A DNA stretch of 64,000 nt. Origin: Clostridia bacterium (GTDB lineage: Bacteria; Bacillota; Clostridia; Christensenellales; Aristaeellaceae). Below are positions 37,990 to 63,961 of this stretch, one piece after another. The position numbers were made by a program, and so were the translations under genes. The stretch is taken from assembly GCA_017549335.1 (NCBI GenBank), contig JAFYVB010000036.1, positions 1 to 64,000 of the forward strand. Reading direction: 5' to 3'. The notes beneath the pieces are model-generated. The model was not told the DNA's origin. It did no database searches and saw nothing but the letters and a program-made list of their open reading frames with translations. Within the stretch, counting starts at the first letter, position 1. Each line of letters begins with the position of its first letter.

Positions 37990-38170
37990 AACACTGAATA
38001 GCGCTCCATGGCTTTTGCCATGACAGTCAAGGCGATGTTCTCACCTTTCCCAACACAGTGTATATGCCGTATACCCTGCATTTCGGCGGCTTCCCCTTTT
38101 GGCTGCGATCGGTGCCCCGGCAGGGCTCCCGCAGCGTACTGATGTCGGCCGCGACCTCTATTCCGTTCAT
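37990..38170 (-). ncRNA. Lysine riboswitch (L-box) aptamer
   Basis: Read on the minus strand the leader has the conserved L-box blocks in order: ATAGAGGTCGCG, ATCAGTA, AAAGGGGAAGCCGCCGAAATG, the TGGG stem return, ACTGTCAT and ATGGAGCGCTATTC. P1 is GAATAG (38163-38158) with CTATTC (38001-37996). The 3' strand of P1, GCGCTATTCA (38004-37995), can alternatively pair with TGAAAGCGC (37948-37940) in the 5' arm of the terminator, apart from one mismatch. Thus bound lysine should favour P1 and termination, and its absence antitermination. Confidence 0.93.
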
Positions 38171-62835: not shown

Positions 62836-62867
62836 AAACCGCTCCGATGGATCAGGGCGGTTTTTTT
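62836..62867. terminator. Terminator between the isomerase and the metallopeptidase
   Basis: Arms AAACCGCTC (62836-62844) and GGGCGGTTT (62855-62863) with one G-T pair, then TTTTTTT. Reaches the stop of the convergent gene at 62866. Confidence 0.85.
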
Positions 62868-63423
62868 ATTTGGGCAGCCGGCGGATCAGTGATTCGCCGT
62901 TTTCTTTCAGCCATTTTTGCTGCAGCTTGTAACCTGGAAGGAGTCTTTTCACCTCCGCCCAGAAAGCAGGGGAATGGTTCATTTGCTTGAGATGACACAG
63001 CTCATGCACGATCACATAGTCAATGACTTCGGGCGGTGTGAGCATCAGCAGACAGTTGAAATTCAGATGGCCTTTGCCGGAACAGCTGCCCCAGCGGGTG
63101 CGCTGGCAGCGGATGGTGATGCGTCCGCAGGGGACGCCCAGCCTATGGGCAAAGAATTCCACACGTGGAGGAAGAAGCGTACGCGCACGACAGACGAGGG
63201 CGTCGATTTCCTGCGGGGTAAAGGGCGTGACGGCAGGCTTGTTCTGAAGATCGAGCAGTTTCTTTTGGATCCAATCCGCTTTGCCGGATACCATGCGCTC
63301 GACCTCAATGGAGGGCAGAAACAGGGGACAGCGCACCTCAACAAGACCCCCGTCCAAAACACGGATCGAGAGGGATTTGCGATTGCTCCTGACAACGGAA
63401 TAGGAAAAAGAAAGGGGCTGCAT
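62866..63423 (-). CDS. YgjP/SprT-type metallopeptidase (M48/DUF45 family)
   Basis: 185 residues from the ATG at 63423, with AGGAG 5-6 bases upstream; the open frame to 63573 runs through the promoter. Zinc site HELCHLKQMNHSPAFW (~137-152): H-E-x2-H, followed by the H-S-x2-F-W typical of YgjP-like proteins. Upstream blocks: SLSIRVLDGGLVEVRCP and QRTRWGSCSGKGHLNFN, both characteristic. Cytoplasmic by lack of a signal. Biological role of the family is poorly known. Single-gene unit. Confidence 0.9.
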   Translation of the reverse strand: MQPLSFSYSVVRSNRKSLSIRVLDGGLVEVRCPLFLPSIEVERMVSGKADWIQKKLLDLQNKPAVTPFTPQEIDALVCRARTLLPPRVEFFAHRLGVPCGRITIRCQRTRWGSCSGKGHLNFNCLLMLTPPEVIDYVIVHELCHLKQMNHSPAFWAEVKRLLPGYKLQQKWLKENGESLIRRLPK

Positions 63424-63477
63424 GGTATCTCCTGACAAAAAAATAATCGGACTGGTCAAAAACCGCCCAACAAATAC

Positions 63478-63506
63478 ATCATAACACAAGGAGAATCGCT
63501 TGTAAA
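63478..63506 (-). promoter_or_regulatory. Promoter of the YgjP-type peptidase gene
   Basis: Minus strand: TTTACA (63506-63501), 17 bp, TATGAT (63483-63478). Confidence 0.65.
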
Positions 63507-63605
63507 GAGGTTTGGTGCATTTTCTCCCGGTTGCTAAAAAACGGGCTTTGATAGGTGCAAAAAGTTTATGCATTCTGCCGTCTATGCAAAAATCCCCGGT
63601 TATGG

Positions 63606-63930
63606 TATATTATAGACACAAGGAAGAGGTGATACCAGTGTACAGGTAAAACCCCCGATGGTTCAGCGGAGAGTGAAATATAAGAGAAAAACTGAACCGA
63701 CAGATGGAAGCTTTCAGCAAAAAGTTTCAAGAAAACCTTCCAAGAAGTGAGAATGAAAGCGGATCGTGTAAAGAAACGATCAAGAGGGAAGAAAGCCGGA
63801 AACGACCTGAAAGAGTTCGTCTGAATCTGCAGAAAGAGAGGTTGACTACATAGTGGATATCAAGATAGCAGCGAAATAACCCTTGGCGGTCAAAGTGATT
63901 AGTTGAACCGTCAAGGGTTATTTCATTTTT
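63606..63930 (+). ncRNA. Candidate structured non-coding RNA, ~310 nt
   Basis: No supported gene lies in 63574-64000. A -10-like TATATTAT (63606-63613) is followed by a purine-rich stretch with separated stems: GGTTCAG/CTGAACC (63660-63666 with 63692-63698), TGGAAG/CTTCCA (63705-63710 with 63737-63742), AGCTTT/AAAGTT (63709-63714 with 63721-63726, alternative), and GATCGT/ACGATC (63762-63767 with 63776-63781). It ends in a strong terminator at 63874. No good -35 box is visible. Family not recognised. Confidence 0.55.
63874..63930 (+). terminator. Long terminator of the candidate RNA
   Basis: Arms AAATAACCCTTG (63874-63885) and CAAGGGTTATTT (63912-63923), extended by GCGGTCAA/TTGAACCG with a bulge; CATTTTT follows. 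Confidence 0.85.
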
Positions 63931-63961
63931 GGATTCTCTGGCCCATGGCCTTTTTTTATTG

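Follow-up and report, generated by a model that had tools for sequence, protein, structure and literature searches.

The window, i.e. the whole stretch of 64,000 nucleotides analyzed here, carries near its 3' end an intergenic unit in which a promoter is followed by a structured, purine-rich RNA region of ~310 nt and by a terminator, with a protein gene on either side. The upstream neighbor of the RNA is ygjP (62866-63423, minus strand; Pfam YgjP-like match), and the downstream neighbor is a gene for a Bmp-type lipoprotein located on the minus strand beyond the window end. On the plus strand, the sigma-A-like main promoter (63584-63611) comprises a weak -35 (ATGCAA, 63584-63589) and a -10 TATATT (63606-63611), and the RNA probably starts near 63618. 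At its 3' end, comparative analysis supports a terminator hairpin with a 17-bp stem (63873-63924) and a short U tract that extends to 63930, followed by a second terminator (63940-63957; GGCC...GGCC, then T7). A crude scan finds this second terminator in 10 of 13 complete copies from the window's order. Scan and alignment also locate a divergent promoter on the minus strand (63478-63506), with a -35 TTTACA (63501-63506), a 17-bp spacer, and a -10 TATGAT (63478-63483). The initial annotation of this region had reported a -10-like sequence, separated stems, GA-rich linkers, and a terminator, all of which are present, while it missed the second terminator and the divergent promoter.

Purines make up 67.7% of the 260-nt segment that begins at 63615, which equals the highest value in the window when scanned in 10-nt steps. 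Without its terminator, the window RNA folds with a z-score of -2.98 (0/200 shuffles equally good), and the corresponding RNA of G008, a relative from the same genus, folds with a z-score of -3.38 (0/100 shuffles). Specifically, the predicted fold contains a 7-bp stem 1 (63660-63698; GGTTCAG 63660-63666 with CTGAACC 63692-63698), a long-range stem 2 (63701-63708 with 63816-63823, and CTTTCAG 63711-63717 with CTGAAAG 63807-63813) that closes immediately 5' of a Shine-Dalgarno-like (SD-like) site, and a hairpin formed by GATCGT (63762-63767) and ACGATC (63776-63781). In G008, ~100 nt are inserted within stem 1 and both arms are kept; this insert (L007 2230-2345) is made of repeated GGACC-(G/A)ACG-like units. 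The hairpin at 63762-63781 is unchanged in G008 and hence holds no covariation information, and G008 is the only relative alignable across stem 2.

Using covariance models of the 3' part, we find 39 copies of the element in 31 genomes (the window's own and 30 others), all of the window's class. A DNA search of 60 relatives returned a single close copy (G008, 89%), and a search of 308 family genomes added G163 together with short matches through which G219, G220, and G011 were reached. Model R1, built from the 3' domain of seven sequences, has matches in 6 of the 308 family genomes (10 copies) and in 5 of 396 genomes of an order sample, where those in the own genome, G436, G459, and G554 are convincing and contribute three more genomes. 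In a class sample of 391 genomes, model R2 (13 sequences) matches 23, namely the own genome, 19 at E < 1e-5, and three weak ones; the families of G944 and G859 yield 6/21 matching genomes (three new) and 9/16 (none new), respectively. In a phylum sample of 398 genomes at E 0.001, only the own genome matches and the other 397 do not, a result that doubles as a specificity control. The E-values of both models are rough, and weak matches (G655 at E 0.03, G745, G778, and G1041) were left out of membership. The own genome holds one copy, as its second weak match is the opposite strand of the same hairpin. In G163, two tandem copies separated by ~710 bp lie on contig C41 (L057 ~200-1250), and a divergent promoter accompanies each of them; contig C33 ends in a third, cut copy.

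Covariation among homologs, which the initial annotation had proposed as a check, is present. Among 13 copies of the 3' domain, pairing holds in 99.1% of cells over 17 stem pairs, of which 6 show changes on both sides, compared with at most three when the partner is slid (alignment A5, fitted to the structure of covariance model R1). Across 16 class relatives, the 33 pairs of four helices hold in 97.5% of cells, with changes on both sides in 23 of them, against at most six in the slid control; these stems were selected on the very sequences used for the counts. The underlying alignment (A6) is based on sequence only and includes 16 of 25 class-level copies, the remaining nine having a shorter or different middle or being cut. 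Besides the terminator, the four helices comprise a long-range stem of 9 bp (GCCUUUUGC/GCAAAAGGC) whose closure lies directly ahead of the last SD-like site, a small UUCUC/GAGAA hairpin within this long-range stem, and, in the motif ACACGRCGGUGUNACGY, a stem of 3 bp. The middle of the RNA is not alignable between the window's family and other members of the class, and the shared position of stem 2 in the window suggests that it is the counterpart of the covarying GCCUUUUGC/GCAAAAGGC stem.

The RNA family is new to Rfam. A search with Rfam 15 (4227 families) gives nothing above gathering score at the window site, nor at the RNA in 20 loci with relatives, which answers the question, left open by the initial annotation, of whether the element belongs to a known family. 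Sub-threshold matches at terminator hairpins (mir-2363, 26.3 of 90 bits, E 0.013; mir-4477, 34.6 of 74 bits, E 0.0018) are taken as chance hairpin resemblance. One candidate, raiA (RF03072), has no match at the site at gathering score or among matches up to E 10, and a raiA RNA is found on another contig of this genome (C41 184557-184765, 170 bits). Genomes that carry the new RNA also have raiA in 9/9 cases searched in the window's order, and in 0/22 elsewhere in the class. Like the new element, raiA is a structured RNA that stands alone, spans a few hundred nt, and comes from Clostridia-type bacteria; it is not known to carry mini-ORFs. In C. difficile, the raiA motif RNA is ModT (PMC11706538). 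The window also holds a lysine riboswitch (37991-38168, minus strand, 115.8 bits).

The space between the two promoters is conserved as well. It contains a box, TTTTCTCCC..TT....AAAAAA (63520-63541, plus strand), that is perhaps an operator, and an inter-promoter alignment of 31 copies supports a conserved bidirectional promoter with the spacer box TTCTCC..TTT..ACAAAA. The divergent promoter occupies the expected position in 28/39 copies by automatic scan and in eight more by eye; it is seen by neither approach in G554 and G877, and the copy G1050b is cut. In the window, the position of this promoter suggests that the divergent transcript begins with GTTGGGC (63465-63471), after which its 5' part (63437-63471, minus strand) continues with a weak hairpin and a T run and doubles as the ygjP leader. 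In other copies, the divergent RNA often starts with GTTGGG or ATGGGC, and in many a terminator-like hairpin lies within tens of bases (by eye, uncounted). A conserved bidirectional promoter suggests that the RNA is regulated. A sense/antisense pair with the divergent RNA was considered and rejected, as own pairs barely outperform swapped ones in predicted complementarity (mean rank 0.47, mean gain 0.35 kcal/mol; 25 copies). The promoters of the rifampicin switch described in PMC12802891 are convergent, unlike the divergent pair seen here.

The initial annotation had seen no supported coding frame in the RNA and therein overlooked two conserved mini-ORFs (63638-63649 and 63853-63879). The two short frames that it had put forward as potential counterevidence lack conservation, their starts being absent from G008: no ATG occurs there at the position of 63658, and ACG replaces the ATG at 63704. 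The 3' mini-ORF follows an SD-like site (GAAAGAGAGG, 63832-63841, plus strand) that is present exactly or as a near variant in 39/39 copies, the copies having been located with a covariance model that covers this site and then anchored on it. In the window, this micro-ORF (63853-63879, plus strand) reads GTG GAT ATC AAG ATA GCA GCG AAA TAA (MDIKIAAK), and its stop lies within the 5' arm of the terminator. With an ATG, GTG, or TTG start, the first in-frame stop comes after 8-10 codons in all 39 copies. The absence of inner stops is a consequence of how the strings were cut, and the informative feature is the constant position of the stop in the stem. For the 38 copies long enough to include the 3' arm, 11 or 12 of the 12 nt that contain the stop pair with this arm, and the stop varies among TGA, TAA, and TAG while the pairing persists. 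A switch in which the SD-like site pairs with the CCUUUU arm is not proposed, as the SD variant GAAAGCGAGG comes with no compensating change in the partner (assessed by eye). The motif GAGAGG occurs 44 times against 8.3 expected, a count that includes the anchor site used for register and is descriptive only.

Near the 5' end of the RNA, another SD-like site (AAGGAAGAGG) precedes GTG TAC AGG TAA (63638-63649), and a UACC/GGUA hairpin encloses this start-stop minigene (63620-63649 with its SD-like site, plus strand). An SD-like site followed by a start, one or two codons, and a stop is found in 31/39 copies, with the stop at codon 4 (28 copies) or codon 3 (three copies) as TAA, TAG, or TGA. Among these, 18 different six-base strings follow the start and every one reaches a stop at codon 3 or 4, compared with 1/18 and 0/18 in the other frames and 0.14 per string after shuffling, a contrast that is overstated to the extent that distinct strings are counted as independent. 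The minigene is not found in seven testable copies (two in G219, two in G011, and those of G220, G459, and G554), and that of G1050b is cut by the contig end. Upstream of the last ORF, G835 has three tandem start-stop units and G1011 has two. The SD-like strings at the two ends resemble each other and are not identical in every copy. The phage lambda bar is a start-stop minigene that shares the SD site, start, one or two codons, and stop; unlike bar, the minigene here forms the 5' portion of a stand-alone RNA that is structured and conserved.

Its identity as an RNA gene is well supported by the comparison, in which promoter, stems, terminator, SD-like sites, and mini-frames with kept stops all recur. 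Given that the last mini-frame ends inside the RNA's own terminator hairpin, ribosomes are probably part of how the RNA works. We tentatively favor, at somewhat less than an even chance, a new ribosome-engaged, stand-alone regulatory RNA whose translation is coupled to its terminator and which acts in trans. The RNA would be made from one side of the bidirectional promoter, and ribosomes would load at the 5' SD-like site to translate the minigene, usually two codons between start and stop. Ribosomes would load anew at the similar SD-like site before the terminator and translate the 8-10 codon micro-ORF, and a ribosome at its stop would have to keep the 5' arm of the terminator hairpin open. 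Translation should hence compete with termination or with closure of the 3' end, and its state would be reflected in how much of the RNA is present, how long it is, or how it folds. Action in trans would proceed via the structured purine-rich middle. In favor of this reading count the recurrence of the element (39 copies in 31 genomes), the covarying stems, the micro-ORF stop that stays paired in the terminator stem, the preserved lysine codon, the minigene in 31 copies, and the varied strands and families of downstream genes. Points against it are that translation-coupled attenuation is the less usual arrangement in Gram-positive bacteria, that the synonymous excess in the micro-ORF is modest and most of its residues vary, that seven testable copies show no minigene, that the two SD-like strings are not always the same, and that the middle of the RNA fails to align between the window's family and other class members.

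The nearest rivals to this coupled reading are nuclease shielding by parked ribosomes and a micropeptide product. Under the first, which we regard as unlikely but the stronger of the two, the structured RNA acts by pairing or protein binding, and its SD and mini-ORF sites only park ribosomes against nucleases and carry no information, in the manner of the STAB-SD elements of Bacillus mRNAs. The presence of SD-like sites toward either end and the variability of the minigene's codons would agree with such parking, and the covarying stems with an RNA that works through its structure. However, parking requires no stop at a fixed distance, and wherever the minigene is present (31 copies) it ends at codon 3 or 4; nor does parking account for the L-D-x-K that most micro-ORFs keep. 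A protein-sponge function is not indicated: CsrB/RsmY-type RNAs are likewise purine-rich with stems linked by A/G stretches, and a CsrB-like sponge was rejected since GGA shows no enrichment in the 39 copies (223 observed vs 255.7 expected, z -3.1).

The second rival, which we consider improbable, is a small mRNA for a micropeptide of 8-10 residues (consensus M-LDIKSEQK), the remaining RNA regulating its translation. In its favor, aspartate and lysine are nearly invariant: all 33 distinct strings use AAA or AAG for the lysine, and the aspartate codon is GAT or GAC except for GAA in G835b and G768b. In G554, the micro-ORF is one codon shorter, so that it stands out of register by one codon in the codon table and its lysine falls one place on. 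Synonymous changes also occur (for example, CTG GAC ATT in G554 vs TTA GAT ATC elsewhere), with a modest excess in frame (16/58 one-step codon pairs vs 6/57 and 14/67 in the shifted frames). Against a peptide product, most positions are variable, one of them taking I, T, N, F, L, or P; D-I is replaced by E-P in two copies, and the leucine is missing from that of the window. The peptide has no export signal, and the neighboring minigene has no conserved peptide at all.

A cis-acting leader or attenuator of the next gene is very unlikely. Leader-peptide attenuators do place a stop codon within a terminator, and ygjP is seemingly transcribed from the divergent promoter of the element, as is perhaps a surE-like gene, named by eye, that this promoter precedes in G219 and G011. 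Pfam-supported downstream genes are nonetheless on the RNA strand in 10 copies and on the opposite strand in 15 of the 25 where one is assigned, and belong to many families; downstream genes that differ in kind and strand argue that the RNA is not a leader, as does the second terminator noted above. For example, the RNA of G008 again adjoins a ygjP-like gene (by position and sequence), and its downstream gene is a pyridine nucleotide-disulphide oxidoreductase (thioredoxin-reductase-like). These Pfam-supported genes replaced a crude ORF orientation, since going by the longest ORF was misleading in at least one case (G163b). The 14/39 copies with no assigned downstream gene divide into those where no scanned ORF exceeds the Pfam cut-off (G436b, G877, G794, G1011, G768b, G944, and G220) and those whose downstream genes lie outside the Pfam scan (G738, G933, G163a, G163c, G1047, G835b, and G1050b). 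Known leader-peptide attenuators and uORF motifs resemble the new RNA, in that comparison likewise places a short ORF across an intrinsic terminator, and differ from it in having one kind of main gene, whereas the new RNA has no consistent co-directional downstream gene. The ilvB and fthC uORF candidates (PMC11109978) combine an SD site, a short ORF, and overlap with an intrinsic terminator before one kind of main gene.

Several neighboring features were seen in passing. Just 3' of the element, G1031 has a Gut-1 RNA (L078 1808-1882, 72.6 bits) and a tRNA. One copy in G219 is followed by a phage portal gene (L059 8037-9530; Pfam P22_portal), and may therefore border a prophage. In G207, G206, and G200 (L043, L044, and L045), a terminator-like string ending in TTTCTTCATTTTTGGAACCC resembles the terminator end of the RNA; by eye, these strings adjoin a tRNA gene or a recombinase-like gene, and they are perhaps attachment sites.

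A repeat or mobile-element remnant is the least credible reading: some genomes have two or three copies, those of G163 include a tandem pair, and the distribution is patchy, but the 141-nt 3' domain of the G220 copy has no match in phage and plasmid collections, exact patterns have none in viral contigs, the locus is common to the close relatives represented by the window and G008, and the conserved promoters, stems, and frames point to selection for function.

The description of the element as a free-standing ncRNA in the initial annotation is supported in its first part, given the conserved promoter and terminator, the covariation, and the varied families and strands of downstream genes. Its second part is half right, because the micro-ORF and usually the minigene are conserved. 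Dual-function small RNAs such as SR1, RNAIII, and SgrS also have their own promoter and terminator, which comparative evidence supports here, and a small ORF inside a structured RNA. The new RNA differs from these in that its ORFs have 2-3 and 8-10 codons, that it usually contains two SD/ORF units, and that the last stop lies in the terminator. Our literature search, which covered open-access journal articles, found nothing alike. To our knowledge, a structured stand-alone RNA, one to several start-stop minigenes, and a micro-ORF with its stop in a terminator had been known only separately until now.

As a possibility we hold to be doubtful, the element could exemplify a stand-alone RNA class with the ribosome as ligand, in which initiation and termination events at the start-stop minigenes and at the micro-ORF with its stop in the terminator would change the RNA itself and thereby make it a free-standing translation sensor. 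Should ribosome loading control the RNA, it would offer a direct handle on translation sensing in these little-studied bacteria.
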